This document shows, in pieces, positions 8,101 through 35,100 of a stretch of 64,000 bases of DNA. The position numbers and the translations under genes are program-made. The DNA is from Apostichopus japonicus (lineage: Eukaryota; Echinodermata; Holothuroidea; Aspidochirotida; Stichopodidae), in assembly GCF_037975245.1 (NCBI RefSeq), contig NC_092581.1:8089501-8153500 (forward strand). Reading direction: 5' to 3'. Within the stretch, counting starts at the first letter, position 1, and each line of letters begins with the position of its first letter. The notes under the pieces were generated by a model that saw only the letters and a program-made list of their open reading frames with translations, was not told where the DNA came from and searched no databases.

Positions 8101-11100
8101 GTGGGAAAGGGGTGGGGGTTGGGAATGGCATGGTAAACAGGAAGTCTTGGGTGGGCATAGCTAAGAGTAATGGTGATCTGTAACATTAGAAGCTTTAAAT
8201 TTAAAAACAATCAGTGACACTGCCTTCTCCCTCATATCAATAGTGTATTAATGTATGTATTGTTAGTCACCCATACTGCCTGTCTATTTGATCATGCAAT
8301 GATTCTGAGACCATTTGACATGTTTCATGGAAAATCTCATCGTTTTATATTCTCAGACATGTCCTCTATGAACCTATGTCACAATTTTTTTTTCCACAGA
8401 GGATGGTAAGTTATACACTTTTGGAGAAAACGACCTAGGAAAGCTTGGTCTAGGTGATGAGTTTACAGGTAGCACTAACATTCCAACTCAAGTTACCGGT
8501 ATCAAAAGTCCAGTCCATTGTGTTGCTTGTGGGAACAATCACACAGCTGTTATTGCAGGTGGGTGTAAAATAAGTTCACTTGTCTCATGTAATTTTGGAC
8601 ACCTGTGTTCTTCATACTTTGCATGTTTACTTTTCAGAAATATATCTTCAACGGTTTAACCGTAAAAGAAAGTCTTTTAAATCTGTTTATGTTTATTCCT
8701 TAGTTGGTGGCGGAAATGGGTGTTATGGGTGGGGTTGTCTTGGCAGCGAAGCTGCAGTTGCTGACCTCTAAGATGTTAATTGTCAGTTTTATGTTAAATA
8801 GGACTTCAGTAAACAACTTAATTGCACATGTAGATTTGATTGGTCGTTCACTGGGCTCAGTTGAATAGATGAGACTTTCTAAAGCAAAATGTTGATTTAA
8901 TTCAACAAGTACACCATGTCATCAACATTGCAGAGATTACAGGGTGTGGCGAGGTTGGGACTCATTTCTCTTTGACTGGTATTCATTGCTGAATGTTTAT
9001 TTTGGGTCACCTAGGCTGGAAATGTGCCAGCCAAACTAGCTATTTGATCCAACTTAAAACTTTATGCCAATTATGCAATCGATACATTTTGTCTGTTCCA
9101 AAGGTGACATGGACTTGTTTACATTTGGTGAAGGAAGTCAGGGTCAGCTGGGACTGGGTCCTTCTGTTTTACAGACGAGCACACCACGCATCGTGAATAA
9201 ACTAAAGAAGCACCGTCTCAAGTCTGTATCCTGTGGTGAGAGCCATACTGCGGTGGTAACAGGTAAAGCATGCATTTTCTTATGTGATTAATGACAGTGT
9301 AAGATTTGTTTAAGTAGAAGGCACATGTTTTTTATTTCTTAGCTTTATCACATGTGTAATTTGTAAATTTTAATTCTATATTTCTTATGGCTTTATTTGT
9401 GAATATTATATATTTATTTTAGTTCGAAGTCTCTTATTGTAAGGGTGTACAGGCCTCCAGGCTACAGGAATTTGGTTTTCTTTTGTACATCCTGATCGGC
9501 TTTGTGTTTTCATATTTTGTTGTTCGTATACTGTTCTTGTGATTGGATCAAATATATAATGAATGAATGAATGAACATGTATATTCATAGTCTTTTGTTA
9601 GTTCCATGGTTCCTTTCAGAAATGCCCAAAAGTTCTCAAAACAGAAATCAAGAAACTTTCCACTTTTGATCCTTCACAGAAAGCGGCTGTCTGTACACTT
9701 TTGGAGATGGGCGACATGGAAAGTTGGCTCAAGGTGAAGAAAGTTTCAGTAATTTATTCGTGCCAGAACGAGTTAGACGTTTGAAAGGATTTTTAGTCGA
9801 GCAGGTCAGTATCCTTCCTCCCTCTGGTACACATTGTGAATCTTAACCTTAATTTACTTCAAGCTAGCCAAAACAAGAGAAGAAAAAAATGTTTGTTTAC
9901 ACTTTTGAAGGACTACTCCAATGGGTAAAGATGATCAGAAATAGTTTTGCAAAAGAATATATGCAAATTGGACAAATTGCCACTAAATCACAGAAAAATG
10001 TGTAGTTTTGTCTTTACTTTTGCCAAGATAAACAAAATTAATAAATTTAATGGAAACTACTATATGCATACATTTAATGACTAAACTATTCCCTTCACCA
10101 ATCTTATTTTGTTGACCTTACCTAGTTAAGGTGAGTAGATAGCATACACCTGATTGTACAGGGTGTAATTCATTGCCCTTGTTTAGTCCTTGGTGGAGTA
10201 CTCAACTCTGTTCCTAATAATTTGCAGTACAAGTACAACATCATGAGTACCCATGCAAGTTCAATTTCCCTTGGTACAAGTACTAATTTATAAGCACAGG
10301 TAAGTGTACATAAATTTGCACAATGCCCTTAGTATGAGTGCAAATCCACAATGATCAATACAAGAACAGTCAGTCTATTTACTACAAATATCTTTCCTAC
10401 TTTTGGATTTGGTAAGGAAATAAGTTGTTCTTGAAATTTATCTCAGAGACAGTAGTAACAAAGGAGTGTCTTCCATTTTTCATCACCAGTTTATAATATT
10501 TGAGGTTAACTACAAACTGTTGTCTTTTTGGTTCCTTGCTGAAAGCAAAGGAACCTATGTATTCAGGTTGGCGTGTGTGTGTGTGTATGTATGTGTGTGT
10601 GTGGGTGTGTGTGTGTGCGTGTGTAACAGCTTCCAATTGAGGACACTCATAGTGTTACACACCTTCCAACCGGGGACTTGCTCCCAAACGGGGACGTCCC
10701 CGTTTGGTTTATGCTCGTATCTCTGTTCCTATTGGTCAAAATAGTTACCGCTAAAATTTCCAGTTCAATAGGCGGGAGTCGTCAATTAGTATATTTGAAA
10801 CGTTTGAGTGTAAATATTTGTGTTTTCTGAGCATGGTTGTCTGTAATGCGCGGTCCCTGTTTGCACAGTGAGAAATCAAATCACGTGACATGTCACTGCC
10901 GCGAAAGTTGACGACTGCCCTCACCTACGATGTCCCCGTTTAGTCGAAATGTAACTACACAACTACACAAGGAGCACGCTACTTACTACTACAAGTGAAA
11001 ACATCCAGAATAAGTCAGTGATTCAAGTCGTTGTTTTTCCAGAAAAGGACCTAGTGAGTAAGTAAATTAAGCAATGTGCAATAATTCCAAGTAAACAACT

Positions 11101-14100
11101 CGTACGTTGTTTAATTAGCGTAATATCAAACGTGGACGTCCCCGTTCCGATAGGCCCAGGCTAAAGTTAGGCTAGGCCTAGTCTGATAGACTTACTATCG
11201 TTAGTTCTGTGCTAGTCTAGTCGTAACTGTTTTACCAACGTTCTGTCTAAATTAAAAAGGAACGATTAATGCTTTTAATGGTAATTTAGAGACAACAAAA
11301 GTTACGGAATGATTGAACAATGATATTTGTCCCACTCATTTTAAGATAAGGCTAGATAAGTCTAGGGTAGCCTAACATAAGTAACGTTAGCATCAACACA
11401 GAGACGATAAGGTATATGCCATGCATTTTGTCAAGCAGGAACACGTGCCCGGTTGGATAGGTAATCGTGAAGTATCAAAAGGGTCCTCCCCATTTGGATA
11501 GGTTAACATGATACACGATGTTATAGTATATACCCCAGGTAGACTAGCCATCACTCCACACACTTGTAATGATTAAGAAAATCACTCTTTGAGTAGTAGT
11601 ACTACTAGCCTAGGCCTAGTACTACTTTAGTATTACTAGTACTACCCTAAGTGTTGGCCATGTGGGTTAGTCAATTATTATCAGTAGCTTGGTACCATTG
11701 TTGGTGCTATGATATGGCTTCTTCTGGTTTTCCTATAGATCCAAATACTGTGTTTGGACATTTCATTACAACTTCAGTTTCAGTTTACCACGAGATTGTT
11801 TCACTCTGTCTTCGCTTTGGGATAACAAGACTATCAATTTGTTTTTGTGACTTTCTCAAAGCTTGGTGCATATTTGTGTATGAAGAAGAAGATTTTGATG
11901 TTATACAACTACATGTGTTACACAACCATCTTAATTGTGAAGTAGCTCATATTTAAGAACAAGTGAACATTCAAAACTATGCTGTAAGATATTGTCCCAA
12001 AATGTGAATATGTAGGCCTATGTTGGTGTTCTTAATTGTTGGAAGATCTATCCATAGGCTTTAGGTAGCAGAAATAGTAAAAAGGCCATGGAAGGCCACT
12101 TAGGCCTTTATTCGCCTGAGAAAGTTAATCTGATGAAATATTTTTATCATCACCAAAACAATTCAAACTAACTGATAGGATGTAAAGAACCAAACAAGCT
12201 GTGTCTTAGTTCTTGACTTTAGTCTGTTATTTCACTGACCCCTTCTTTTGCTTAAGTGACAGTTACTTGTTCATGAAAGTGTCATGAAAACATTTTAATC
12301 TTTACATTCTGTTGCATTGGTTATTAATTGGAAGCAATTGTGAATGGAATATTTTTTAACCTCACTAACTTTTCCTAACAAGACGCTGGTTTCAGTACTA
12401 AAAGAAATAACCAGTGACATGGGTCAGTCAGTTCACTACAATGCTTTTTCCCCCAAGTACTACATTGTTGAAATTTGAAGAGAGAAGAAAACCACAAATG
12501 TCATTATTCCACACTCAAAATGTTCATAGTTCATCACTCCAACAAACAGATTTAGAGAAATATTACCAGTGCATCGGTTAGTCTATGACCTGCATTATAG
12601 GCTTTGTTAGGCTACTGTACTTACAGTTATTGCAGTAAATGTTTATATCATGAATCCTTACATCACAGATCTAATAAGGTTTTTCACCATCCAAACAGAT
12701 ACATGCTGTCATGCAATTGTTGTCTACCATTTTGATGTTTAAAAAACTATAACTAAGCTAATATTAGACTTGTATAGTTTTGGTTTGTTGACGGTCAATG
12801 ATGTCATGTGAAAATCTTCTATAGAGCAACACAAATGTACGAAAATCTACAAAATCTAACCTTGTGTTTATTAATCTTCATTTTAACAACTAGACATGCA
12901 AAGAAGAACAAGAAAAAGACGTAGATCTGTTACAGAACTATGTACAGAAGAGGATCCCCCTGGATTCCTTGTAAAGAATTCTCCAGGAAAAGGTATGCAT
13001 TATCATAAATATTGCAAGTATTTCCCTTCATAAGCACTTTTTCAATAATATATTCAGCATACTTTCTTGCAAAATGGACAGATGGACTTTCACCACTGTA
13101 AACCAATTACTGTGCTGAACAAAACTCTTTCATATGCTGAGCGTAATACAGTTTGCGACTTTTTAACTCATCAAATGTTGAAGCTTTGTTTAGTTAATGT
13201 TTTTCTTACTTGTCAGTTGTTTGGTTCACTTCAGTTATGAAATAGATCCAATTTACCAACTTTGTTACCATATTAGTGTGGAGTGACAAAGCAGATGGAT
13301 AGCCTTATACTGGCAAGGTGTCTCCTAACACAAAATGTAATACTGTACTGTTAAACTTTTCTTTTCATTAGCTGTGATGCAGGAATGTGTTCTATATCTT
13401 TTCATTATTAAAGGGAGAGGTGTCTTTACCGACTGCATAGTTGAGAAAGGGGAATTCCTTTTCTCCTATCATGGTGAACTCATTTCTGGGAGAGAAGGGG
13501 AGACTAGGGAGGAACATACCAGCAGTGTATTCAGATATTTCTTCAAATATCAAGACAAGAAATGGTGGTAAGCTATATGTAATTGTCATGAAGTAAACAG
13601 TCCATTTATAGCCCAAAATGGTTTATAACCATAGTGCACTTTACTTGCTTCACTATATACATTATACACAACAGTATGTACTTACAGCCTAAGGAGTTCT
13701 TGTCTGATTCTGAATCTATCCAATTCTGGACTATTCTTGACTTGAAATTAATAAAAAGCCTAGGACCTCAGCCAAGAGAATGTTCGAGGGTATATGAATT
13801 ATCACTCTATTTTTCCACTATTCTTTTCTCAAGCATACAAAAGCACATTAAATAACTTTCTCACCATCACTGAAAGTTGCAGTTATGATTGAGAGAGGAG
13901 ACAGATAATTCATATTCAAAACAGCCTTGTCATTGTACAATCTGATGGCTTTCCATATGAAAGGAAAGTTTTATTAACAATATATTGAATGCATTTGTTT
14001 ATTCTTTTGATTATCACTATTAAAACCATAAATGTTTACAATATATTTATCTTTCACATTTTGTAGGTATTGCAATTAAAATGGCTGTGTTTATCAGCAC

Positions 14101-17100
14101 CATTAATTAGGAATATTGTATACTACATGTGTTTGTGACTGGTATCTTTTTTCTTGCAGTGTTGATGCTACAAATGAACCCACTCATGGTCCAAAGCTTG
14201 GCCGTCTCGTAAACCACGGAAGAGGAGATCAGGCCAATGCAAAAATGGTAGTCAAGGCTCTGAACAATTTGCCCATTCTGTGCTTGTTAAGCAAAGAAAG
14301 ACTTACCCCAGGAGTAGAAATTTTGTATGATTACGGCCTTGACGAGAAGGATATGCCATGGATGAAGAAGGTACAGTAGGAATTTAATGTTTTATTTTGT
14401 ACACGATAAGTTTGGATATTGTATTCTCAGTGTATATTGATTTGTATATTTCATAGCTGACTAACAGGCTCGTTGTAGTCTCTTGGGTGTTTAATTTCTC
14501 ACTTATTTGGTTGTATACAGAGTGCAGACTGAAGGTGAGATCATTTACTTTGCATCCTTATGGTACCTATGTCTGCCAAAATGCACCTGGAATGATGAAC
14601 TAGGCCATCACTAGCTAAATGTTCCCATGGGAATAGAATGCATTACTGTACATTCATTGTTGGGAAACAAAATGTGGTTGTGTATTAAGTCCATCACTAA
14701 TCACTGTTAAGCAGCTTGCAAGTGGTTTTACTAAACAATAATGTCCATTTAGTAAGACTGAGAGGTATCCAGCTTATTTTTGTGTATCATATATGTATTT
14801 TCAAAGTGACCTAATCTGTATCCCATTGAAAAAGTCAGCTCAAAGAGTCCTTACCAAAACTTATGTCATGTTCATTTCTAACTCGACAATAAGAATAAAT
14901 CTGTCTATCTATTTGGTGTACTGAATGTGAAGGGTTGTTCCGGCTAATCTGTTGTAAACAATTTTCATACTAAACGGTGTCCAAGTGCAATATGCCTAGA
15001 TCCAGTCAGATGGAAATTGTTAACTTGATCTGCTGTAATCCTTTGCATTCAGCAATAAACTTTTGACAGGAAGTTTCTCATTCTCATTTCACATAGCTTC
15101 AGTACTGAAATGTGTGCAATATATGTCTTCCATTCCAGCCACCAGGCTCCTCTCTGACCCATACAGGTTAATTCTCATTTCTTGTGTTGGTTTTCAAGTT
15201 ATTATTTTCTGCAGTTACACAGTTAAAGGCTATTTTGCCTTGTTTATCTTTTGCATTCCATTAAGTGTTAAAGGGATATTCCAGTGGCAGATGATGTTAG
15301 TGTACATTCACGAAAAAGATGAAAATATTCCGCACTAGTACTTTAAAACCCTGTCTCAATATTTTGTCTCTAAATGTGTTGCTTTGTGGTTAATTATACT
15401 TGCAAGTAAATGCCTAGAAAATTGCAGGAAATTGATCCGAGTGGGTGGTCTGTGATATGTCATCATTTCTTCAAAAGCTCTACTTTAACTACATAATTTT
15501 TCTGTTGATTTGTTCTTAAAATATGATACGTTTGGATTTTCATTGGAAATAGCTCTCATTTTACTCTGAATTTAATCCTTAAAATACAAATTTTTAGTAA
15601 GAACGTTATTTCCACTCTCGATAAATGGTTTGCACTTTATAATAAAACACAAAAGTATTTTCAGTTAGTCTGATGTAATGACACCACTAACTCTGTCATA
15701 ACATCATTGCCAGACACATTTGAAACATTTTTCCAAAGAAATTCATGAATATCTTTGCATCAACTTGTGCCAGTGGAATATCCATCCAACACCTTTTTTT
15801 TTGCATTGTTTAATTCTCACATTTTTTCTTTTGCCTGTTCATTATTGTCTTTCTTGTTTCAACCTAACATTTCAGCTGATGATTTGATGAGAGTATAAAA
15901 AGAGGTAATTGTAATAATAAGTTGACAGAATAATTGAGAGTCTTATTAATGTACATATAATAAGTAAGTAAGTGACTGAGTCAGTCAGTCAGTCCGTCAG
16001 TCAGTCAATCAGCCAGTCAGTCAGTCAGTCAATCACTCTACTGTAAAAAATATGGCTATGTTACAAATATGAAAAATAGTGATAGAGCGAACGATAAAAC
16101 ATTAAACAATCGAACAATAAAACACACAAAGGCAGGACCTAACGGCTCAAGTTATCATAGTAAAGCCTTATTGCACGTGGAATAAATGAATTGCGATGAC
16201 GGTTGCTTCTCATGGGTGGGAGACGCAGTCTGCCAGTGCCCCTAGTTATGATATTATCGTGCAGATAACAGTGAAGCGGGTGATCATGGTCATTCCAAAC
16301 AATGTCTAGTTTGTTTTGGAGCAAGCACATATGGATATAATAGTAGTGTCCTCATTTGGTACTGTGGGCAGTAAATCTGTATATGATATATGTAGATCTC
16401 GTGAACAGTTTAATTTTAATGTGAAGTAAAGTAGTATAGCATAGTAGCCTTGATAGGTCACAGCCTACAGATATGATAATTTTCCAATTGGAATATGGTG
16501 CGTATGCAAGAAATACATTGTTTGAAGGTACATGCATACTTAGTTGATTCAGTATAGAATTAACCGTTGCAAATAAGTTAAGTTACGAATTAGTAGAAAA
16601 TAGCAGCAATGTTGGTACATCATATATCAATCCTTACAGTACCTTGCATCACACATAGTTTACAACATATGGCATATGATGTAGTGCATGTGATAGAAAT
16701 ATGTTGTTGTTACCTGTGACAGTGTGCAGTGCCACTAATTGGTACAGTACATAATTTCTACATCGCCAAGTAGACAAATATTTTATCTTCAGTTGGTGTG
16801 TAATGTACCATATCTAGTTTAAATTTACATTAGTTGCCCTCCTAACCCTAATGGGAAAAATGTTTTACTTTTCGTACCAGTTCATAATGTCCAAATCATT
16901 TTTTTCTAGATCTTAGTTTGTAATCATTATATACCATAGAATCCACATGTCATATGTGATACATCATCTTCTTAAATATGCATTAAACATTCTCCATTGT
17001 CCCAAGGGCCACTGCAGGTTTAATTCTAAGACATGAATTGTCTTAAGTTGCTGCTTTAGCATAGGTTCTAGCATGGAGTTTTCAATGGTGTTTATTTACT

Positions 17101-20100
17101 AATTATTACAACAACATATGCATTGGCAGGCCTATGTGCTACATCTGATGTAGCTCATGCACTTATCCTTTTAATGTGAAAAGTTCATTGCATGTACCAG
17201 AACTATTGTTCCTAGCCATTGGTACACAAGGTCCAAATATTAATGCTGTACCTATGTAATGATATAGAGTGATCACATTTGGTACGTGTATTATTTCTAT
17301 TGCAAATGTGTTAAATTTCTAAAAGATAGAATATTTTATCCAAACATGGTTTGTTAAACAGTGATCTTCTTCATTGGGCACAATACAGTGTCTCCATCAG
17401 TGTACAGTGTAAAACTAAACAAATATTGTTTTTAGGCACTCAGACACAACGTCCTCATTTGGTTTGTCATTTTCTTGTAGCTACTTGTATTGTGTAAGTA
17501 TTTATATTCTTTCAAGGATCTAATGCACAGACTCCCCAGTTGGTATGTACTTTGATTGTAGCTAATGTTTCAAGGTACAGTATAAAGTAGTAGAATATAT
17601 CATCCATGAATATTCAAATGGTATGTTGTACACCTCTCCATCTTAATGGTGAATGTAGATCAGAAAGTACATTGTTTCTCCATTTGGTGTGTGAGTATAG
17701 AAATTAGTACTTTCTAGGATCTGATGCACAGAGTCCCCAGTTGGTATGTACTTTGATTGTAGCTAATTTGTCAAGGTATAAAGTAGTAGAATATATCATC
17801 CATGAATATTCAATTGGTATGTGGTACACCTCTCCATCTTAATGGTGAATGTAGATCCAAAAAGTATTGTACATTGTTTCTCCATTTGGTGTGTGTGAGT
17901 ATAGAAATTAGTACTTTCTTAGGCTCTGATGCACAGAGTCCCCAGTTGGTATGTACTTTGATTGTAGCTAATGTGTCAAGGTATAAAGTAGTAGAATATA
18001 TCATCCATTTATATTCAAAAGGTATTTGGTACACCTCTCCATCTTAATGGTGAATGTAGATCCAAAAAGTACATTGTTTCTCCATTTGGTGTGTGTGAGT
18101 ATAGAAATTAGTACTTTCTAGGCACTGATGCACAGAGTCCCCAGTTGGTATGTACTTTGATTGTAGCTAATGTGTCAAGGTATAAAGTAGTAGAATAAAT
18201 CATCCATTAATGTTCAAATGGTATGTGGTACACCTCTCCATCTTAATGGTGAATGTATATCAAAAAAGTACATTGTTTCTCCATTTGGTGTGTGTGAGTA
18301 TAGAAATTAGTACTTTATAGGCACTGATGCACAGAGTCCCCAGTTGGTATGTACTTTGATTGTAGCTAATGTGTCAAGGTATAAAGTAGTAGAATAAATC
18401 ATCCATTAATGTTCAAATGGTATGTGGTACACCTCTCCATCTTAATGGTGAATGTATATCAAAAAAGTACATTGTTTCTCCATTTGGTGTGTGTGAGTAT
18501 AGAAATTAGTACTTTATAGGCACTGATGCACAGAGTCCCCAGTTGGTATGTACTTTGATTGTAGCTAATGTGTCAAGGTATAAAGTAGTAGAATAAATCA
18601 TCCATTAATGTTCAAATGGTATGTGGTACACCTCTCCATCTTAATGGTGAATGTAGATCCAAAAAGTACATTGTTTCTCCATTTGGTGTGTGTGAGTATA
18701 GAAATTACTACTTTATAGGCACTGATGCACAGAGTCCCCAGTTGGTATGTACTTTGATTGTAGCTAATGTGTCAAGGTATAAAGTAGTAGAATAAATCAT
18801 CCATTAATGTTCAAATGGTATGTGGTACACCTCTCCATCTTAATGGTGAATGTATATCAAAAAAGTACATTGTTTCTCCATTTGGTGTGTGTGAGTATAG
18901 AAATTAGTACTTTCTAGGCACTGATGCACAGAGTCCCCAGTTGGTATGTACTTTGATTGTAGCTAATGTGTCAAGGTATAAAGTAGTAGAATAAATCATC
19001 CATTTATATTCAAATGGTATGTGGTACACCTCTCCATCTTAATGGTGAATGTAGATCAAAAAAATACATTGTTTCTCCATCCGGTGTGTGTGAGTATAGA
19101 AATTAGTACTTTCTAGGCACTGATTCACAGAGTCCCCAGTTGGTATGTACTTTGATTGTAGCTAATGTGTCAAGGTATAAAGTAGTAGAATATATCATCC
19201 ATTTATATTCAAAAGGTATGTGGTGCACCTCTCCATCTTAATGGTGAATGTAGATCAAAAAGGTACTGTACATTGTTTCTCCATTTGGTGTGTGTGAGTA
19301 TAGAAATTAGTACTTTCTTAGGCTCTGATGCACAGAGTCCCCAGTTGGTATGTACTTTGATTGTAGCTAATGTGTCAAGGTATAAAGTAGTAGAATATAT
19401 CATCCATTAATGTTCAAATGGTATGTGGTACACCTCTCCATCTTAATGGTGAATGTATATCAAAAAAGTACATTGTTTCTCCATTTGGTGTGTGTGAGTA
19501 TAGAAATTAGTACTTTCTAGGCACTGATTCACAGAGTCCCCAGTTGGTATGTACTTTGATTGTAGCTAATGTGTCAAGGTATAAAGTAGTAGAATAAATC
19601 AGCCATGAATATTCAAATGGTATGTGGTACACCTCTCCATGTTAATGGTCAATGTAGATCAAAAAAATACATTGTTTCTCCATTCGGTGTGTGTGAGTAT
19701 AGAAATTAGCACTTTCTAGGATCTGATGCACAGAGTCCCCAGTTGGTATGTACTTTGATTGTAGCTAATGATTCAAGGTATAAAGTAGTAGAATATATTA
19801 TCCATTAATATTCAAATGGTTTGTGGTACACCTCTCCATCTTAATGGTGAATGTAGATCAAAAAGTACATTGTTTCTCCATTCGGTGTGTTTGAGTATAG
19901 AAATTACAGGGTAGTTAGTACTTTATTGGCACTGATGCACAGAGTCCCCAGTTGGTATGTACTTTGATTGTAGCTAATTTGTCAAGGTATAAAGTAGAAG
20001 AATATATCATCCATTTATATTCAAAAGGTATGTGGTGCACCTCTCCATCTTAATGGTGAATGTAGATCAAAAAAGTACTGTACATTGTTTCTCCATTTGG

Positions 20101-23100
20101 TGTGTGTGAGTATAGAAATTAGTACTTTATAGGCACTGATGCACAGAGTCCCCAGTTGGTATGTACTTTGATTGTAGCTAATGTGTCAAGGTATAAAGTA
20201 GTAGAATAAATCATCCATTAATGTTCAAATGGTATGTGGTACACCTCTCCATCTTAATGGTGAATGTAGATCAAAAAGTACATTGTTTCTCCATTTGGTG
20301 TGTGTGAGAATAGAAATTAGTACTTTCTTAGGCTCTGATGCACAGAGTCCCCAGTTGGTATGTACTTTGATTGTAGCTAATGATTCAAGGTATAAAGTAG
20401 TAGAATATATCATCCATTTATATTCAAAAGGTATGTGGTGCACCTCTCCATCTTAATGGTGAATGTAGATCAAAAAAGTACTGTACATTGTTTCTCCATT
20501 TGGTGTGTGTGAGTATAGAAATTAGTACTTTCTAGGCACTGATGCACAGAGTCCCCAGTTGGTATGTACTTTGATTGTAGCTAATGTGTCAAGGTATAAA
20601 GTAGTAGAATATATCATCCATTAATATTTAAATGGTATGTGGTGCACCTCTCCATCTTAATGGTGAATGTATATCAAAAAAGTACATTGTTTCTCCATTT
20701 GGTGTGTGTGAGTATAGAAATTAGTACTTTCTAGGCACTGATGCACAGAGTCCCCAGTTGGTATGTACTTTGATTGTAGCTAATGTGTCATGGTATAAAG
20801 TAGTAGAACATTTTATCCATGAATATTCAAATGGTATGTGGTGCACCTCTCCATGTTAATGGTGAATGTAGATCAAAAAAGTACATTGTTTCTCCATTTG
20901 GTGTGTGTGAGTATAGAAATTAGTACTTTCTAGGCACTGATGCACAGAGTCCCCAGTTGGTATGTACTTTGATTGTAGCTAATGTGTCAAGGTATAAAGT
21001 AGTAGAATATATCATCCATTTATATTCAAAAGGTATGTGGTGCACCTCTCCATCTTAATGGTGAATGTAGATCAAAAAAGTCCTGTACATTGTTTCTCCA
21101 TTTGGTGTGTGTGAGTATAGAAATTAGTACTTTCTTAGGCTCTGATGCACAGAGTCCCCAGTTGGTATGTACTTTGATTGTAGCTAATGTGTCAAGGTAT
21201 AAAGTAGTAGAATATATCATCCATTTATATTCAAAAGGTATTTGGTACACCTCTCCATCTTAATGGTGAATGTAGATCCAAAAAGTACATTGTTTCTCCA
21301 TTTGGTGTGTGAGTATAGAAATTAGTACTTTCTAGCATCTGATGCACAGAGTCCCCAGTTGGTATGCACTTTGATTGTAGCTAATGTGTCAAGGTATAAA
21401 GTAGTAGAATAAATCATCCATTAATATTCAAATGGTATGTGGTACACCTCTCCATCTTAATGGTGAATGTAGATCAAAAAGTACATTGTTTCTCCATTTG
21501 GTGTGTGTGAGTATAGAAATTAGTACTTTCTAGCATCTGATGCACAGAGTCCCCAGTTGGTATGTACTTTGATTGTAGCTAATGTGTCAAGGTATAAAGT
21601 AGTAGAATATATCATCCATTTATATTCAAAAGGTATGTGGTGCACCTCTCCATCTTAATGGTGAATGTAGATCAAAAAAGTACTGTACATTGTTTCTCCA
21701 TTTGGTGTGTGTGAGTATAGAAATTAGTACTTTCTTAGGCTCTGATGCACAGAGTCCCCAGTTGGTATGTACTTTGATTGTAGCTAATGTGTCAAGGTAT
21801 AAAGTAGTAGAATATATCATCCATTTATATTCAAAAGGTATTTGGTACACCTCTCCATCTTAATGGTGAATGTAGATCCAAAAAGTACATTGTTTCTCCA
21901 TTTGGTGTGTGTGAGTATAGAAATTAGTACTTTCTAGGCACTGATGCACAGAGTCCCCAGTTGGTATGTACTTTGATTGTAGCTAATGTGTCAAGGTATA
22001 AAGTAGTAGAATATATCATCCATTAATATTTAAATGGTATGTGGTGCACCTCTCCATCTTAATGGTGAATGTATATCAAAAAAGTACATTGTTTCTCCAT
22101 TTGGTGTGTGTGAGTATAGAAATTAGTACTTTCTAGGCACTGATGCACAGAGTCCCCAGTTGGTATGTACTTTGATTGTAGCTAATGTGTCATGGTATAA
22201 AGTAGTAGAACATTTTATCCATGAATATTCAAATGGTATGTGGTGCACCTCTCCATCTTAATGGTGAATGTAGATCAAAAAAGTACATTGTTTCTCCATT
22301 TGGTGTGTGTGAGTATAGAAATTAGTACTTTCTAGGCACTGATGCACAGAGTCCCCAGTTGGTATGTACTTTGATTGTAGCTAATGTGTCAAGGTATAAA
22401 GTAGTAGAATAAATCATCCATTAATGTTCAAATGGTATGTGGTACACCTCTCCATCTTAATGGTGAATGTAGATCAAAAAGTACATTGTTTCTCCATTTG
22501 GTGTGTGTGAGTATAGAAATTAGTACTTTCTTAGGCTCTGATGCACAGAGTCCCCAGTTGGTATGTACTTTGATTGTAGCTAATGTGTCAAGGTATAAAG
22601 TAGTAGAATATATCATCCATTTATATTCAAAAGGTATGTGGTGCACCTCTCCATCTTAATGGTGAATGTAGATCAAAAAAGTCCTGTACATTGTTTCTCC
22701 ATTTGGTGTGTGTGAGTATAGAAATTAGTACTTTCTTAGGCTCTGATGCACAGAGTCCCCAGTTGGTATGTACTTTGATTGTAGCTAATGTGTCAAGGTA
22801 TAAAGTAGTAGAATATATCATCCATTTATATTCAAAAGGTATTTGGTACACCTCTCCATCTTAATGGTGAATGTAGATCCAAAAAGTACATTGTTTCTCC
22901 ATTTGGTGTGTGAGTATAGAAATTAGTACTTTCTAGGCACTGATGCACAGAGTCCCCAGTTGGTATGCACTTTGATTGTAGCTAATGTGTCAAGGTATAA
23001 AGTAGTAGAATAAATCATCCATTAATATTCAAATGGTATGTGGTACACCTCTCCATCTTAATGGTGAATGTAGATCAAAAAGTACATTGTTTCTCCATTT

Positions 23101-26100
23101 GGTGTGTGTGAGTATAGAAATTAGTACTTTCTAGCATCTGATGCACAGAGTCCCCAGTTGGTATGTACTTTGATTGTAGCTAATGTGTCAAGGTATAAAG
23201 TAGTAGAATATATCATCCATTTATATTCAAAAGGTATGTGGTGCACCTCTCCATCTTAATGGTGAATGTAGATCAAAAAAGTACTGTACATTGTTTCTCC
23301 ATTTGGTGTGTGTGAGTATAGAAATTAGTACTTTCTTAGGCTCTGATGCACAGAGTCCCCAGTTGGTATGTACTTTGATTGTAGCTAATGTGTCAAGGTA
23401 TAAAGTAGTAGAATATATCATCCATTTATATTCAAAAGGTATTTGGTACACCTCTCCATCTTAATGGTGAGTGTAGATCCAAAAAGTACATTGTTTCTTC
23501 ATTTGGTGTGTGTGAGTATAGAAATTAGTACTTTCTAGGCACTGATGCACAGAGTCCCCAGTTGGTATGTACTTTGATTGTAGCTAATGTGTCAAGGTAT
23601 AAAGTAGTAGAATAAATCATCCATTAATATTCAAATGGTATGTGGTACACCTCTCCATCTTAATGGTGAATGTAGATCAAAAAGTACATTGTTTCTCCAT
23701 ATGGTGTGTGTGAGTATAGAAATTAGTACTTTCTAGGATCTGATGCACAGAGTCCCCAGTTGGTATGTACTTTGATTGTAGCTAATGTGTCAAGGTATAA
23801 AGTAGTAGAATATATCATCCATTAATATTCAAATGGTATGTGGTACACCTCTCCATCTTAATGGTGAATGTAGATCAAAAAAATTACATTGTTTCTCCAT
23901 TTGGTGTGTGTGAGTATAGAAATTAGTACTTTCTAGGCATTGATGCACAGAGTCCCCAGTTGGTATGTTCTTTGATTGTAGCTACTGGTAAATATATTTT
24001 TTTTTTAGTAGAACATAGCATTCACAAGCATTTTGTATGTGACTCATCTATCTTTCCATGAATGTGCTGTATTGTATCAGTACAAGTTATGTTGTTCTTA
24101 GGTTCTATCATAGATTGGCCCACAAGGTATGTTATTAGTGTCATCAGTTTCTGTGTGCTACTGTAAGATGTCAATGGTTTGTATTTAATTCATCATTGTA
24201 GCTGCTACAGTGTTGACATAATAGTGTCATTGGTTTTTGCAAATGTGTTACCACAGTAATTATAAAGTGCTAGGCATAACTTTAAAGGTGTAGACATGTT
24301 GTGCAATGTTGCCATATTTGTTCTGATATTTGGTATTTATGATTATATTTTTAAATTTTATTGGTTCTGTTTATCTGTTTTTACTAACTTATACAAAGGT
24401 TGGTTAAAGGGTACCCTTCTTATGTATGGTATTTATGTGCACCGATGCACAGAGTCCCAAGTTGGTATGCTATATAGCTGTATATAATGTCTGGAAGATC
24501 TTATGTAGAAGAGCATAGCATCCTTATACGTTTGATATGCGACACATCATGAATGTGCATTACATGAATGTCTATACTGTACTGCCATAGTAGAACAAAT
24601 CATGTATCTGGTTACTAGCACAGAGTGTCCCCACTTTGTATGCTTAATATTTTCCGTTAAAAATGGATTCAGTTTCAAGATAAATAGAATGTAGATCAAT
24701 CCAATGGTTGCATCGACAAGTGGTATGTGATACATCATTCGATCTTGCATGTACAAAGTACATTGTTTCTCCATTTGGTGTGTGAGTATAGAAATGAGTA
24801 CTTTCTGGGCACTAATGCACAGAGTCCCCAGTTGGTATGTACTTTGATTGTAGCTAATGTGTAAATGTAAATTTGAAAATGTGTTTCCATTTTCCACAGC
24901 ATAAATATAAAGGTGTCTACATGGTGTTAAATGTTTCCTTATTTGTTTTGATATTTGATATTTATTATTATGTTTTTTTAAATTGTTTTATCCAACAGAT
25001 GGGGAACCAAAAGCCTCTGCAGTAATTCAGCAAAAACTAGCGGTAAACGACAATAAACAACCTACCTGTACAGAGGTGTTTGGAGAAACTCATACAGGAT
25101 CTGAGCAATATCAGGAAGTGGCAGACCATGACCAAAAAACAGATACAGAAGCAAAACACCCTGCAGTACTTGCGCAAGAATTGCCAGCAGCAGAACTCAA
25201 CCGACCATCAGATGTAGAAAGAGAGGCTGATGTAGAATCTACAAAGGAACCGAAAGTAGCACAACAGGTCCAGCCAACAGATATTGAACTTAAGCAAAAA
25301 CTAGCGGTAAACGACAATAAACAACCTACAGAGGTGTTTGGAGAAACTCATACACGATCTGAGCAATATCAGGAAGTGGCAGACCTTGACCAAAAAACAG
25401 ATACAGAAGCAAAACACCCTGCAGTACTTGGGCAAGAATTGCAAGCAGCAGAACTCAACCGACCATCAGATGTAGAAAGAGAGGCTGATGTAGAATCTAC
25501 AAAGGAACCGAAAGTAGCACAACAGGTCCAGCCAACAGATATTGAACTTAAGCAAAAACTAGCGGTAAACGACAATAAACAACCTACAGAGGTGTTTGGA
25601 GAAACTCATACACGATCTGAGCAATATCAGGAAATGGCAGACCTTGACCAAAAAACAGATATAGAAGCAAAACACCCTGCAGTACTTGGGCAAGAATTGC
25701 AAGCAGCAGAACTCAACCGACCATCAGATGTAGAAAGAGAGGCTGATGTAGAATCTACAAAGGAACCGAAAGTAGCACAACAGGTCCAGCCAACAGATAT
25801 TGAACTTAAGCAAGAAATGAAAGTAGCAGACCAAGTGAGAGGATACAAAGTTCTTGAAACAAGTAAGTACCATATCATCAACAATTATCAACATATCATG
25901 TTAAATGTGCAGATACAAGTGATTCTGTATTATATTTGTTTGCATATGCTATGTGGAAAGCAACTAGTCATAATCCTCGTATGAAATACATGTCTGTTTG
26001 CTAAGATGGATAACTAAGAGCCTAACACTAAGTGTTCTCTTTGATACAATTTGTTACTTTTTGTCAAATTTTTAAGACAAAATCAAAGCAAAAATATGTG

Positions 26101-29100
26101 CTTCTTCTGGCTATTGCAGGTGTTCCATAGTTGATTATTACTTCATAATTAAATGTGACAATCACTGATCTTTTCAGAAATCAAAGATGACAGTTTGCTG
26201 ACGGCATGTTGTAATGAAGTAGGCGAAGATGATGGTCAAAGCGATCAAGACTCATCAAGTTCTTCAGATGAAGGAAGTGAATATTTACCATCTGAAGAGG
26301 AAGAATTGGTACCACCATCAGATGCATCAAATGATTCATTCCCAAGATATCCAAACCTTAATCTACTGCTTGGATCTGATGTGGATACTACAGAGTCACA
26401 GGAGACTGCAAAGTTCAACGAGGAAGATAGTCCTGGTCCACCTCTAATACATGTTAAAACCACTAGCAACTCAGATGGTAGAAAGTATAATAAGAAACAT
26501 ATCTGCTTTTACTGTGAGATATCCCAAGCAAAGTTGCCACGTCACTTGCAAAGTGCACATTCAGATGAGTCTGCTGTCAGAGATTGGATGGGAGAAACTA
26601 ATATTACGTTGAAAAATGCCAAGCTTACAAAAATCAGAAACTTGGGAAATCACATCAACAACTGCAAAGTTTTGGAAGAAGGCAGGGGAGAACTACTTGT
26701 GAAGTATAGACCTGTGGGAAGTGTAGATCCAGCAGAGTTTGTTCCATGCCCAACCTGCTACGGGTATTTGACCAGGAAATTTCTCTGGAAGCACACCTGT
26801 CCATTACAAAATAAGCAGAGTGATGCTGGAAAGAAGAAAAGAGGAGACAGAGTCAGAAATGGTACCATGCTGTTACCAAGCCCATCAAATTTGCATTCAG
26901 AAGTTGCAGAACTTTTGTCTACTCTAAAAAATGACAATGTGTCAAGAGTGATTAAGAGTGATGAGCTCATTCTTCAGTTTGCCAAGAAGGAGAATCTAAA
27001 ACTAGGCCATGATCCTGAACAACAAAACTACACACGCACAAAGCTACGAGAAGTTGCAAGACTCTTAATTGACGCTCGTGTTGTAAGCAAAGATGAAAAC
27101 CAAACCTTAACTGAACTAATTCATCCTGCAAAATATGACATCGTTGTGACTGCTGCGCGAAATTTAGCAGGATTTGATAGCAGCACACATACATACAAAG
27201 TACCCAGTCTTGCATTAAAACTTGGCCATTCCCTGAAGAAGTGTGCTCTTATCGTAAAAGCTGAAGGATTGAAATCTGGTGATGAAAATGCTGTTAATAA
27301 ATCCACACAGTTTCATGAATTATGCGAGATGAAATGGACAGAGGATATTTCTGTCCATGCCCATCGTACACTCACGGAGAACAAAAGAAACAAAGCAAAG
27401 GCATTGCCTCTAGCAGAAGATGTTCTTTGTCTCACATCCTACCTGAAAGAAACATCAGAAGTACAAAGGAAGCTTGTGAAGGAAGGAACATGTGACAGTT
27501 TCACAGCTTGGAAATCTCTGAATGAACTTACTCTGACACAAGTGATGCTCTTCAACAGGAGAAGACAAGGTGAGATCTCAAAAATGAGTGTTGATGACTA
27601 CAATAGTAGATGCCTTCCTGAATCCATGGACTACATTTATGATTCTCTTAGCGACTTTGAGAAAGAGTTGTGCAGGACATTCAAAAGAGTAGAAATTGTT
27701 GGGAAGAAAGGAAGAACAGTTCCTGTTCTGCTAACTAAAGAAATGGAGGAATCAATGTCGTTGCTACTCAGTAGCAGAGAGAACGTTGGTGTAAGTGCTG
27801 AAAATCCTTATATGTTTCCATCGACTTCAGATGGTCACATTCGAGGTTCTGACTGTATTAGAAGGTATGCTGTTTTGTGTGGAGCAACTAATCCAACTTT
27901 CCTGCGATCGACAGCTTTAAGGAAGCAGATTGCCACGGTTAGTCAAGTGCTGAACCTCAAAGACAACGAGCTTGACATACTTGCCAAATTTCTCGGTCAT
28001 GATGTACGAGTACATCGGGAGTTTTATAGACTACCTGATTCCACGCTGCAGGTTGCGAAAATTTCAAAATTACTCTTATCGCTGGAGAATGGTAGAACCT
28101 CAAACCTTGCAGGCAAATCACTTGATGAGATTGACATAGAAAAAGATGAAGGTAAGGAATACCACAATTTTACATTTCTTGGGAAACTGTGCACATACTT
28201 CTCCATGATGCAAGCCCCAATTGTTTGTAGAACATGTTGAATGTTGTTCTGAGTAATGATTTCTAGTTCTACAAACAATCCCAGGTCTAAATGTTCTCTA
28301 CACCCTCAAGCTCTAAATATGTCAAACATTATCAAGTATAATGACAGCAAACCACTCCTGACTGCTTTGCTTAAAAATGCTGCTTACATTTCTAAATGCC
28401 TAAAACAGATTAACTAGAGCTCAGTATTTGGAATCACAGGGAATAAATTCCTTCATAGACCCGTAGTACTGCTGAAATGATTAAACATGGTGAGGGTACA
28501 GTCAGCTTTCTTGCACTTTTTACCCAATTGTTGTCTACGTGTATGTAAGATGTGTTGAATATATATCACAAATATAACTCTTGATGTTCTTTGCAGAGAT
28601 ACAGGAGGATGAAAGTGTAAATGACAGTGAAGAAGATGAGAAAGTGGAAGAAGAGGATGAGCAGGAGCAGGAGCCTTTGAACCATGTTCCACATGTGACA
28701 ATGCCAGAACAAAGTCCAATTCCAGCAACTGCAAAAAGTATGTAAACTAGATAGTTTGTAATATTACATTTCTGTAATTCTTCATGTACAGTAAGCATCA
28801 CGTCGGCTAGCGATATGAGTAACTGCTCACAATATACACTGACTTTCTCTTGCAATTGCTTCCTTGCTTCTGTTTTGCTTATATCAGATGAAAATGGGTG
28901 TCATGCCTGCTCATGTGGTGTGCAAAGTACAATGTCTCACCAGTCACTTGTTTGAACTCTATTCAAGCATAATATATATTTGCTCATTTTCAATGTATAT
29001 GTGTCTGATGTGGGTGAATGTCACAATATAATATTTTAATAACTCTAAAATATGCCATTAACTGCTCACGACTTTGCATACAAAACAAAAATAGGACTCA

Positions 29101-32100
29101 ATCCACAGTAACATTGACATGGATGACTGAACAAATACATGTTACTGTAGCTACTGTGAACAATCCTCACAATTTGCCTTTTACACTAGTCTTGTTAATT
29201 CTTGAGGGATTTGCCGCAACTCATTTTCTAGTAGATGATTGAATTGTTCCACCTGTTTTTTGAGAAGCCAGAAAACATTATAGTTTTGTATGAACAGACC
29301 TATTCCCATTCTGACAGATGCACCGGGCATGCTCTTTAGGTGACCTTTTACACATGTCTGTTCTCATCTAAGGCGATTTTGTCTGTTCTCATCTAAGGCA
29401 ATAGTGCAATACATATCTGCATAATTGTTTAAGTTAATTTCTTTTCACTTTTTCAGAAACACAATGCAGAAGGAGACCTTGGTCAAATGAAGAAGTAGAC
29501 ATAATGAAGAAAGCCTTCAGAAAGGAAATTGCACAGAACAAACTTCCTGGAAAAGCAGCGATTGAAAAAGTTCTTGAGCAGTATGATTGCCTTAGAGGGC
29601 GCAAATGGACCAACTTGAAAGATTTTATTCGAAATCGCTTTCTAAAAGCAAATAAAGAGTAGAGCTGTTATACAACTGTTTCAAATAAACCGTTATTTGA
29701 GTGGGTGGTACTTAGTTATGAGGATACAAGTTTCAGTGTCACTTTTCTACATGAAAAAACGTGGGAAGCAAATAGGCGGCTGCTATTTTTGTGATACTTT
29801 TCAAAGCTTTTGTTGTTTGTTCATCACATCACTCTTAAAAGTTGTGTTTGTATTTTAGATTTATGGCTGACCAGAAAAACAGCTGTGACTTATTTGACCT
29901 ATGTGTTATTTCTAATTCACTGCAACATTGCATTACTAGTTTATTTTTAATTCAGGTACTAAGTTGCACTACATACATAAAATGGTGCACAGATAATATT
30001 TCCTTAAGTAATAGAAAAACTTATGCAGAGCAAAAACAAAGGGTTAGAAAGGTTGAACAGCTCTTTTATTGTTTATGTGTTTTAATTCTTAATTACTACA
30101 TTATTACAGGCATGTTTTTCATTTCAGTAATTACGTTGCACTGCATAATTTAAATTGTGTCGAACGCCTTTAGAAAAAAAGCTGCAGAGAGAAAATTTTA
30201 AAAAAAGTAATAGAAAAACTCCTGGATAAATGAGAACACTAGGAAAAATGTAAGCTACTTATTTGTAATTGCTTGGAGAAACTTCAAAAGAAAACACACA
30301 AAGGTTAGATAAATGTTGTTTTTAAGGAGAACAGCTCTGACATTGAGTGTGGTTGCAGAAGAAAAATAGATGGCTGTTACTGCTATTTATATTATTGTTT
30401 TCAAAAATGTTGTTTTGTTTGTTGATGACAGCTTCATTAAAGTGATATTTGTACTTAAGTTTAAGGGCTGAGGGAATGTTGACTTCTTTAAAATTGGTAT
30501 ACTGTAGTTGACTGATAGAGCTAATTTATATGCTGGTCTTTGCTTAATAATGCCACATCTGAGGTGCCTAGTTGAAACATGGCTGAAATAGTCAAAAAGG
30601 TGGTGATGCTATTGGATTGATTCAAATCAATTAGCTGATATGTTTGTTTACTGTTCATTATGTTTAAGCTGTTTAACTTGGTGTTATATGAATACATTGT
30701 TTTGTTACTTACTTTTAGTTTCCATTGTGTTATAGTTATTTTCTCTGTCAATGTGTGAGATTGGCTTCTGTTAAAGGAGAAAATAGATGGCTGCTATTAC
30801 TGCTATTAATATTATTATTTTAAAAACTGTTGTTTTGTTTGTTGATGACAGTCCCATTAAAGTGATATTTGTACTTAAGTTTAAGGGCTGACCGGTAAGA
30901 CAGTTTGAGTTGAGCAATTTATTTATGTCTGATATTGGATATAAGTTCAGTTTTCAAAGCAATAGAATTGCTCTTTAATTAAACAACTTTATTACTTTAC
31001 TTAAATGGGTTTTTTTTTCAAAATCACTGCATCACCTTGATTTAAGCAATTGCATGTTACCAATATAGGGAATGTTGACCTCTTTAAAATTGGTATAGTT
31101 GACTGATAGAGCTAATTTATATGCTGGTCTTTGCTTAATAATGCCACATCTGAGGTGCCTAGTTGAAACATGGCTGAAATAGTCAAAAAGGTGGTGATGC
31201 TATTAGATTGATTCAAATCAATAAGCTGATATGTTTGTTTACTGTTCGTTATATTTAAGCTGTTTAACTTGGTGTTATATAAATACATTGTTTTGTTACT
31301 TACTTTTAGTTTCCATTGTGTTATAGTTATGTTCTCTGTCAATGTCTGAATTTGACGTATCAACGCGTATCAAAACTGATCTGAGTATGTTTTTAAACAT
31401 GAATCCAACTAAAGTTGACATATTTGAAAACTTTGTTGCCAACTTTTGCTTGTACCCATTTAGTATGGACTAAGTTACCCCTGTGCTGAAGTGTGATTGT
31501 AAATGCAAACCCTGTTAGGTATTGACAATAATAGAACATGAACCACTGTTGTGTCCCCAGTTGAAATACACTGTGTGTCCGCATTTGGTACATAACTTGT
31601 TAAGTGTGGTCCACAATTGGAATACACTGTGTGTCCCCATTTGGTACATAACTTGTTAAGTGTGGTCCACAATTGGAATACACTGTGTGTCCCCATTTGG
31701 TACATTACTTGTTAAGTGTGGTCCACAGTGGAAAAAACTGTGTGTCCCCATTTGGTACATTACTTGTTAAGTGTGGTCCACAGTTGAAATACACTGTGTG
31801 TCCCCATTTGGTACATTACTTGCTAAGTGTGGTCCCCAGTTGAAAAACACTGTGTGTCCCCATTTGGTACATTACTTGTTAAGTGTGGTCCCCAGTTGAA
31901 AAACACTGTGTGTCCCCATTTGGTATGTACTTTATCAAAATAGTTTTTAGCTTATATATTCCCTAGCATTAAGTGTTAATGAAAAGCCTCCTGCCATGGC
32001 TCATTGCAAGTCATAGGACACACCCTCATACCTGGGAATATGCCGTGCGGCACTGTCCCCACTTGGTCAGTCCAAAAAAAGAGTCCCCGATTGGAGCCTG

Positions 32101-35100
32101 TTACATGTATGTGTGTGTGTGTGTGTGTGACGCTTAAGCTTGTATGCACGATAACTCAACAAGGGATTGACTGATCATGATCAAACTTGGTGGGTGGGTG
32201 GCCCATAGTGAGTAGATGAACCCTATTGTTTTTGGTGCCCACAAAGGTCACCAAAGGTCAGTTATGGTCCAAAAACCTAAAATACTAAAACTGCAATAAC
32301 TCCCAGTGCCAATGTGCGACAAGGTTGATATTTTGGGACAAGTTGTGAACTGGTTAGGGCAATGTTTTCAAACATAACGGTCATGTGATCCGAGGTCACC
32401 AAAGGTCAATTAATGATAAAAAACTAGTATTTTTGCGATAACTTGAGAACGAATTGTCCGTTAGGGTTGGGAGTTGCTTCAATTTAATCCAATTGTCGAC
32501 CCACATCTGGGTGACCCTTGACCTCAATTTGACCTCTGGTGACCTTTTTATGTTTTGGGGATTTTTACAGTTTCGATGCTATTTTCAGATGTCAAAGGTA
32601 CTTCTGATCATAATTGTCAATAGGTTGACCCCCGTGTGACCTTCGTGTGCGGAGTTATACGAGGTCAAAGTTAATTTTCAGACATTTAATGCAATAACTC
32701 TCAGTTCCAAGGTGTGACATGGTTGATATTTTCGGACAAGTTGCAAATGGTATAGGGGAATATTTTCAAACTTAACGGTCATGTGATCCGAGGTCACCAA
32801 AGGTCAATTAATGATAAAAAACTAGTATTTTTGTGATAACTTGAGAACGAACTGTCCGTTAAGGTTGGGAGTTGCTTCAATGTAATCCATTTGTCAACCC
32901 GCATCTGGGTGACCCTTGACCTCAATTTGACCTCTGGTGACCTTTTCGTGTTTTGGGGATTTTTACAGTTTCGATGCTATTTTCAGATGTCAAAGGTGCC
33001 TTCAGATCATAAATGTCAATAGGTTGACCCCAATGTGACCTTCGTGTGCGAAGTTATACGAGTTCAAAGATAAATAATATTAATGAGGGTCACAGGTCAA
33101 ACGTGAAAAACTCCCAAGTTGCAATAACTTAGCTACTATTTATTGGAATTTCGTCAAACTTGGTATGATGATATTGGTAGATAGTCTCTACACACTGATG
33201 TGTGTTGCAATTGATATCATGCATGTTTATAAGGGGGGGGGGGGGGGGGGCTAGCATTATTTCGTTATAAAAAGTTTGTATGCACAATAACTCAACAAGG
33301 GAATGACCAATCATTACCATACTTGGTGAGTGGGTGGCCCATAGTAAGTAGATTATCCCTGTTGATGTTGGTGCTCATTTCATGAATATTAATGAGGTCA
33401 TGGGGTCAAACGTGAAATACTCCAAATTGCAATTACTTGGCTACTATTACTAGTCGGAATTTCGTCAAACTTGGTATGATGATAATGGTAGATAGTCTTC
33501 ACACACTGATGTGTGTTGCAATTGATATCAGGGCTTAGCATTACTTTGGCAACAAAAGTTTGTGAGCATAAATTACTGTTGTTGTATTAGGGCTTTGTTA
33601 GAAATTTCCCTATGAATGGAACTAATGAACAGCAGCAAGGAACCATGAAATGTTTTCATTCTGGTTTAGGTTTCTTGTGGGGGTTGTCACACTCTTGTAA
33701 GAGCCAGAAGAAGAACTCCTAACCGAGATTGCGTTTCTTCAGAATCTGAAACAGAGACGGAACAAACTAATCAAAGAATTTCCAATACAGTGGAGAGACC
33801 TCCACAAGATGGACAATTGGGAGAAAATTTAAAGAAATTAGCCGAATCTATTGAACTTCAGGGATCATTAAATGGATCCTTAGGTGGTACAGCAAGGGGC
33901 AGGAGAAGACAAAGAGAGGTAAAGAAACTTTTTTGTTTTCATTTGCTTGACACTTCAAGCTGATTTAGTACTATCACTATTAATACTACTTTTTGCATTC
34001 AATTTACTACTACAATCTGTTGATACCATACTCAACTGCTAGTGGGAAAGAAAATGTAGCTAAATATTTAACAAGTTACTAGTGCACCAAAGTCACACCA
34101 GTGACAAGGAACGTAAAGGGTTTGCAAATGCAAAATCAATAATATAGTGTTATATAGGAATAATATAGTGTTCAAAGTTTGTGTAGCAGCCTTGAAGGCT
34201 CTGAACCTCAAAATAATACTGTAGAGTCTGTGTACAATCCTGCTAGGTATACTTCTTTGCATTAGCGATTTGCCCATTAAGCATCAATCCGTAGCATGTT
34301 GCGATGCGATACCAGATCAATAATTCCTTGCGTTTAACTTGTGGGAAACAAATATGTCTTCACTGCGCTAAACCTTGTACGAATCACTCATCAGGAGATA
34401 TTAAATGGTTTTATACCATTTGGGAAGAGTAATACAATGTTACAACCCAGTGCAATATGCAGTTATGATAACAACATTATGTATTCCATTATAACCTTAT
34501 ACTGATCAGTTACTATTTGACTGCCCAAATTTCAGAACTTACAGAGCTCTAGTTTACTATCACATTTTTAATCCTTGTGTGTTACCTGTTTCTTAAATTT
34601 GGGCTAAACTCCATACATTTGAGCAAACTATTAAGAATAACAAAACAGAAATGTAAAAAAAAATACCAAATAATGTTTGTGGGAAATTTGATTCAGTCAT
34701 GAACACACATGCTTTTGAGCTCAAATATGTTTAAGTGATGACATCATGACTGGAATAAAAATTGAAGAAAGATATGACTTGGTTATAAGGTGATAGTTAT
34801 CAGTAATAAGCAGCTGGCTTAGAGTGACCGGATACATGTGAGTAAGTTGGGGTATATGGTGGACCACACAGTATGCCTTTCAATATTATAGTAAGTTAGG
34901 GTGTATGATGGAACACAGTATGTCTTTCAATATTATTGTAAGTTGGGGTATATGGTGGAACACAGTATGTCTTTCAATATTATAGTAAGTTGGGGTATAT
35001 GGTGGAACACAGTATGTCTTTCAATATTATAGTAAGTTGGGGTATATGGTGGAACACAGTATGTCTTTCAATATTATAGTAAGTTAGGGTATATGGTGGA

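Follow-up and report, generated by a model that had tools for sequence, protein, structure and literature searches.

An element in an intron of an RPGR-like gene

The window, as we call the whole 64,000-nucleotide stretch of Apostichopus japonicus DNA analysed here, contains an RPGR-like gene, one exon of which (8372-8656) matches RPGR in the PDB with an expectation value (E) of 7.9e-40. More RCC1-like exons lie between 4537 and 9288, and a probable next exon, judged by eye, is at 33670, where there is no significant PDB match. In the intron between lies a block, 10622-32105, which begins and ends with terminal inverted repeats (TIRs), is bordered on each side by a TG tract and carries a multi-exon gene whose predicted product has a SET domain and a tyrosine recombinase (YR) domain (Table 1). 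We hold it very probable that this block is a recently mobile DNA transposon belonging to a large animal family, and that its transposase is a YR encoded in one gene with a SET domain of KMT5A/SETD8 type.

The initial annotation of this DNA had pointed to a 'giant' transposon within an RPGR intron, led by a SET and/or tyrosine-recombinase-like protein, with ends that agree at 19 of 23 positions, that abut TG microsatellites and that enclose multi-exon coding sequence. Realignment of 10622-10644 with the reverse complement of 32083-32105 gives the same 19 of 23; both TG tracts are there; the coding sequence is accounted for by the SET exons and a 693-aa open frame; the exon match places the block in an RPGR-like gene; and the copies, ends and gene content described below support a large transposon led by a SET plus tyrosine-recombinase protein. 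The word 'giant' fared less well, for of the 21.5 kb some 6.5 kb is a 199-bp minisatellite, so the element is large rather than visibly rich in cargo.

Table 1. Predicted features of the element and its surroundings (window positions) and genomic positions of the four full-length copies (C, contig)
Feature	Position	Strand	Remarks
Probable YR-SET transposon, complete	10622..32105	+	21,484 bp; four copies with common ends
Left TIR	10622..10644	+	TGTA start; GAGGAC at positions 18-23
Right TIR	32083..32105	-	TGTA start; GGGGAC at positions 18-23
TG tract, left junction	10573..10621	.	last 7 bases GTGCGTG; may be carried by the element
TG tract, right junction	32106..32129	.	starts TGTATG
Left part of high-copy host repeat containing the TG target	10524..10621	+	BLASTN to 5 empty copies
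Right part of the same high-copy host repeat	32106..33073	+	matched to empty copies
24-bp perfect palindrome CCAAACGGGGACGTCCCCGTTTGG	10684..10707	.	subterminal motif in both orientations; candidate protein-binding site
Exon-containing open reading frame	11651..11953	+	39% over 72 aa with sister family; no Pfam match
First SET-proximal exon	12887..12992	+	start approximate; donor GT at 12993
SET exon 2	13414..13567	+	KMT5A-like; splice sites and phases fit
SET exon 3	14160..14370	+	
199-bp minisatellite	17509..23984	.	32.3 copies; GTCCCC-NN-TTGG motifs every ~200 bp; length varies between copies
Linker exon	24999..25862	+	three 258-bp (86-aa) repeats at 25029-25813; acceptor uncertain
Tyrosine recombinase exon	26178..28151	+	two zinc-binding motifs, then YR catalytic domain
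C-terminal exon	29457..29662	+	50% over 74 aa with sister family; phase-compatible with YR exon
56-bp tandem array near right end	31553..31925	.	bears GTCCCCATTTGG-type motifs
Copy 1 (window)	C21:8100122-8121605		21,484 bp
Copy 2	C21:4860437-4880341		19,905 bp
Copy 3	C16:36010104-36029243		19,140 bp
Copy 4	C15:21169379-21188098		18,720 bp

Copies, a sister family and deletion derivatives

Other loci with the same ends, for which the initial annotation had suggested a search, do exist. Four genomic loci carry the left 339 bp of the element at 100% identity together with its right 176 bp at 98-100%, and these are the four full copies; 15 further left ends are diverged (74-85% over 55-90 bp), so that 19 were found in all. 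Near the ends (~1.4-1.8 kb each) pairs of copies differ by 1-7 mismatches, or 0.07-0.42%, plus indels, the largest of which is in the left part of the C16 copy, where ~952 gap columns are read as a length difference of ~476 bp together with the matching overhang. Compared over its full length with the window element, the C15 copy consists of collinear blocks at 97.2-99.4% with arrays of different length. The YR frames of all four copies are open and 99-100% identical. Given this slight divergence near the ends and the near-identical open frames, mobility of the element appears to be recent.

A sister family, with a 10,106-bp member on C7, has a YR 63% identical to that of the window and the same exon order; six coding stretches are kept in the same order between the two, the linker not being among them. 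Its ends and its insertion in TG tracts, as well as those of its derivatives, resemble those of the window family. Three sister-family loci have lost what lies between the left ~1,700 bp and position 7,716, and the internal junction is the same in all three. The two of these read whole, of 4,333 and 4,414 bp, have exact ends and lie in TG tracts; the right end of the third is beyond the piece fetched. The SET and YR exons fall within the stretch missing from the derivatives, an indication that the derivatives were mobilised in trans.

The ends and what lies beside them

It is recurrence, and not their mutual resemblance, that makes the pair of ends credible. Both begin TGTAACAG and their best local alignment reaches 26 bp. 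However, 295 position pairs in the window match at 19 or more of 23 positions, and 87 of these are left after a low-complexity filter and a spacing limit of 5-40 kb; taken alone, the 19/23 match is not significant, being no better than chance in this window. A genome pattern search with TGTAACAG by itself is uninformative (46,157 sites). The pair is nevertheless real because the ends recur at other loci. All 19 ends read (10 left, 9 right) start with TGTA, and positions 18-23 are GGGGAC in 15 and GAGGAC in four, these four being the left ends of the window family.

When left and right ends are joined head to tail in silico, a TACATGTA centre results in each of the seven joins computed, and the 16 bp at the centre form a perfect palindrome in 4/4 of the window family and in 0/3 of the sister family and derivatives. 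PMC3212892 describes YR sites in general as inverted arms about a short spacer, and the joined-end layout, with inverted arms about a TACATGTA centre, fits such a site.

Further in, there are 44 occurrences of GTCCCCNNTTGG in the element, 38 of them in two tandem arrays, and none in the 42.5 kb of the window outside it (59 and 1, respectively, when one mismatch is allowed). The subterminal motif GTCCCC-NN-TTGG is borne by the units of both the 56-bp and the 199-bp array.

The target

All four full-length copies sit within TG tracts, and beyond TG/TGTA no duplication is visible by eye at any of them. Left junctions read GTGCGTR in 10 of 10 cases (the window family supplying four and the sister family six), which represent 10 of the 19 left ends found, C8:12785886 included, with 9 unread. 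Right junctions, from three families, read TGTATG in each of the nine that could be followed to the base.

In the window the invaded TG tract belongs to a high-copy host repeat, both parts of which flank the element. Uninserted copies of this repeat have an unbroken TG tract between matching left and right parts in 5/5 read (39 others are listed), which is how an empty site would look, as judged from paralogous copies of the repeat. With the right flank of the repeat as query there were 2,788 first-look candidates, 40 of which were scored. The repeat has a hairpin-like GGTTCCTTGCTGAAAGCAAAGGAACC start, and its internal TG tract is the insertion site. That the target site might be enriched in the genome was considered and rejected: GTGCGTRTGTATGTG occurs 153 times versus 274 for a reversed control, so it is available, not enriched.

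The gene

The predicted order along the gene is a KMT5A/SETD8-like SET domain, a repeat linker, zinc-binding motifs, the YR and a tail. The three SET exons join in frame to give a protein in which 137 aa match the Pfam SET domain (E 9.2e-14) and which matches KMT5A/SETD8 in the PDB (E 3.4e-19); in-frame joins also link the linker exon to the YR exon and the YR exon to that for the tail. In two other families the C-terminal half of SET and the YR are in one open frame, of 1,263 aa and 1,498 aa, so the fusion is evident there with no recourse to a splice model. The tail, which looks Myb/SANT-like, has in Pfam only unrelated matches below the cut-off.

Within the 693-aa open frame of the window element is a YR-like fold, and a catalytic domain of this fold with the residues R...K...R...H...Y is predicted to be present: R469, K516, R588, H614 and Y623 are invariant in all seven aligned sequences. 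When an AlphaFold model built with 7 sequences was put to Foldseek, the top 11 matches were all tyrosine recombinases or type IB topoisomerase (best E 1.2e-4). VIA-align gave XerH at Z 13.5 with 282 residues aligned, and also listed Cre, lambda Int and Tn1549 Int; XerA is among the structural matches of the model too. Ahead of the catalytic domain are two zinc-binding motifs, C116/C119/H129/H134 and C197/C200/H212/C214, both invariant in an alignment covering five families; a wider alignment does not list the first Cys pair as such.

The family at large

The window element belongs to a family that has 73 or more YR loci. Two protein searches of the genome gave 78 YR places, which became 73 distinct loci after fragments were merged, and these counts are lower bounds since scoring covered 64 of 214 candidates in one search and 74 of 225 in the other. 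At 51 of the 73 a SET match lies upstream on the same strand, 0.7-32.3 kb away from start to start; for the first 65 YR places the figure is 44, versus 0.8 expected by chance. A related left end is upstream of 11 of those 65 places (10 loci), and on the same strand in 11/11. SET matches number 91 overall, 47 of them with no YR from the first search within 45 kb. Some families contain identical copies, F36 having four YR frames at 100%.

In one family, at C9:28904493, C13:2782500, C13:8994935, C16:31819642 and C16:32018842, SET and YR are 22-31 kb apart, and with such a gap elements of more than 30 kb probably exist. One such interval, of 25 kb at a locus of family F35, holds a 268-bp minisatellite and minus-strand frames that by eye are retroelement-like.

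Points against, and other explanations

A number of observations weigh against the reading of 10622-32105 as a mobile element of the kind set out above. Neither transposition nor a circle nor a transcript has been observed. The exon chain is not closed between 14370 and 24999, where the phases mismatch unless a weaker acceptor at 25031 is used, and 22 of the 73 YR loci have no SET match within 45 kb upstream on the same strand, though one of them has such a match on the opposite strand. As to the enzyme, where the HxxR motif usually has His these YRs have T or S; the window YR has only a sub-threshold Phage_integrase match in Pfam, and five other YRs scanned had no Pfam recombinase match. The AlphaFold model is of low confidence (mean predicted local distance difference test score 63.5, predicted template modelling score 0.39). 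In the VIA-align comparison the root-mean-square deviation of the best match, XerH, is 8.2, and the program itself warns that Z up to ~13 is possibly unspecific for helical proteins.

The exact left boundary is also in doubt. The last base of the left flank is G in 4/4 of the window family and A in 6/6 of the sister family, and GTGCGTR was found by eye in none of the five empty host-repeat tracts read; from these family-specific bases and empty tracts it follows that the true left end may be up to ~7 bp further out and that the GTGCGTR bases may be partly carried by the element. Among the GTGCGTRTGTATGTG places listed 17 have A at the R position and the rest G; on that footing six A out of six in the sister family would hardly arise by chance alone. 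There is, in addition, the F36 family (L031/L033), where the right boundary of both copies is in a (TACA)n tract, not TG; it could not be placed to the base and the two copies are not among the nine right ends counted above, while the left ends of F36 and F48 were not reached. Target choice may differ between families.

Could the block be something more ordinary? That it is a host gene nested in the RPGR intron, with inverted ends by chance, would sit well with its intact coding exons and with an end match that is within chance, but four near-identical full-length copies with the same ends at different loci, deletion derivatives in the sister family and uninserted copies of the host repeat leave this explanation with virtually no credit; the other copies already refute it. 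Spread of a host block by segmental duplication, or by recombination between TG microsatellites, is exceedingly unlikely. The copies do lie between TG tracts and one SET locus elsewhere in the genome is in a 40,027-bp tandem; yet the flanks of the four copies have nothing in common beyond the TG tract or host repeat, the ends are exact to the base, and families whose YR identity is 63% or lower have right ends of the same type, again in TG tracts. There is very little to recommend an endogenous large DNA virus, or remnant of one, with a YR for its integration, like the crustacean nimaviruses that enter telomere repeats. The nimavirus YRs described in PMC10871703 do have a C2H2 domain and do target simple repeats, but lengths in the two families measured are just 10-21 kb, no viral gene was recognised among the open reading frames scanned, and neither IMG/VR contigs, where all 19 pattern matches went unconfirmed, nor phage records, where there were none, gave a confirmed relative of the YR; in PHROGs there was only a match at E 0.078.

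Two further proposals accept mobility but assign it differently. TIRs are typical of elements moved by DDE-type transposases, and since only part of the element's reading frames was scanned against Pfam, one might suppose that such an enzyme moves the ends with the SET-YR gene as passenger. We think this quite improbable in view of the lack of a target-site duplication beyond TG/TGTA at the four window-family copies, of the shared orientation of ends and YR in all 11 places with a related left end upstream, and of the inverted-arm layout with its TACATGTA centre, which fits a YR. That the element is a Crypton which gained a SET domain and inverted ends deserves to be taken more seriously, though it too is unlikely. 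The enzyme class is the same and Cryptons have terminal direct repeats of 4-6 bp (PMC3212892), of which TGTA could be one. Against it, none of the six YRs scanned matches PF12012 (DUF3504) at E 0.1, the nine PF12012 matches of the genome coincide with none of the 78 YR places, and hhalign of A2 with one Crypton-like reading frame gave a probability of 0.5%, a weak test as it involved a single sequence. Moreover, Cryptons are without TIRs according to that same source, and the 23-bp TIRs here recur in both window and sister families.

Relatives and the proposed mechanism

The preferred reading, a transposon moved by its own YR, invites comparison with several known systems. Cryptons (CryptonA in animals) are likewise DNA-only and YR-moved, with a short direct repeat as the likely crossover and a circular intermediate proposed, according to PMC3212892. 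The TGTA at the junctions read could be such a repeat, although it lies in TG tracts, for which the empty counterparts read are paralogous; unlike Cryptons the element has a SET domain, zinc-binding motifs, a length of 10-21 kb and microsatellite targets, in addition to the TIRs and the lack of a DUF3504-type YR dealt with above. The Starships of Pezizomycotina share large size, YR movement, sometimes TIRs and direct repeats, and in some cases insertion into other transposable elements (PMC12134995); their captains, however, carry DUF3435 (PF11917), for which there was no match at E 0.1 in six YRs scanned. The recombinase here is moreover in one gene with SET and the host is an animal, and no recognisable cargo was found in the window reading frames scanned. 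In its way of working the element resembles Cryptons and Starships, yet with no DUF3504 or DUF3435 in the six YRs scanned, and with TIRs that Cryptons lack, it departs from a defining feature of each. Endogenous nimaviruses, for their part, are hundreds of kb long with viral genes and have (TAACC)n or 28S rDNA rather than TG tracts as target, a SET fusion being unmentioned for them in what was available of PMC10871703. Among the reading frames scanned there was no reverse transcriptase of the sort that DIRS/Ngaro elements feature, no profile for this enzyme having been run over the whole element.

The integrases of Tn916/Tn1549 type have the YR fold, Tn1549 Int being among the PDB matches. These conjugative transposons are bacterial and are not known to have SET or zinc-binding motifs, and it is their coupling sequences that the family-specific flank bases of the element recall. 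SETMAR/Metnase, in which SET is fused to a mariner DDE transposase, is a single domesticated primate gene; here, in contrast, SET is part of a mobile element across many families and is paired with a YR. Fish and cnidarian proteins may have a similar YR end motif. Full-text searches of the literature, with Repbase and bioRxiv outside their reach, gave no paper whose title and opening of the abstract describe a SET plus YR transposon.

While the mechanism class, a YR DNA transposon, is well supported, we infer circle formation and the SET function. Guided by its zinc-binding motifs and C-terminal tail, the recombinase would bind at the 23-bp ends as well as at the subterminal GTCCCC-NN-TTGG motifs, and would cut at TGTA. 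Joining of the ends would yield a circle with a TACA|TGTA centre between inverted arms, and recombination of this circle into a TG tract would leave an insert bordered by GTGCGTR|TGTATG. SET probably marks chromatin at the element or its target, favouring access or limiting silencing. Does the element choose its flank or bring part of it along? Under target selection the empty site should be a clean TG tract reading GTGCGTRTGTATG; if bases are carried by the element, the empty TG tract should be without GCGTR.

We lean, by a little, to regarding these elements as an undescribed superfamily of large animal DNA transposons with a YR and a KMT5A-like methyltransferase in one protein, whose circles would enter microsatellites within high-copy repeats, a 'safe haven', and which would write a chromatin mark, the left-flank bases being perhaps short coupling sequences that travel with the element between sites, as those of Tn916 do. 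Even so, the element is filed as a variant of YR transposons and not as something categorically new. To our knowledge the YR-driven DNA transposons of animals were previously known only as small Cryptons and endogenous viruses, the large ones being fungal Starships. A single animal genome holding 73 or more YR loci, with divergence of 0.07-0.42% near the ends of the four copies studied, offers the prospect of following YR transposition in a tractable animal system where the kind of target, TG tracts, is defined. It would also be a rare case of a mobile element encoding a chromatin writer beside its recombinase, so that transposon manipulation of host chromatin becomes testable on one protein.

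Uneven distribution in the genome

Contig C17 has 18 of the 73 YR loci on 5.5% of the genome, several of them with stop codons, and is perhaps a repeat-rich or sex-linked chromosome. The SET matches at C13:9229159, 9269186 and 9309213 are exactly 40,027 bp apart and three 601-bp pieces from them are identical, with 0 mismatches; either a 40-kb unit was recently repeated in tandem or the assembly is at fault here.

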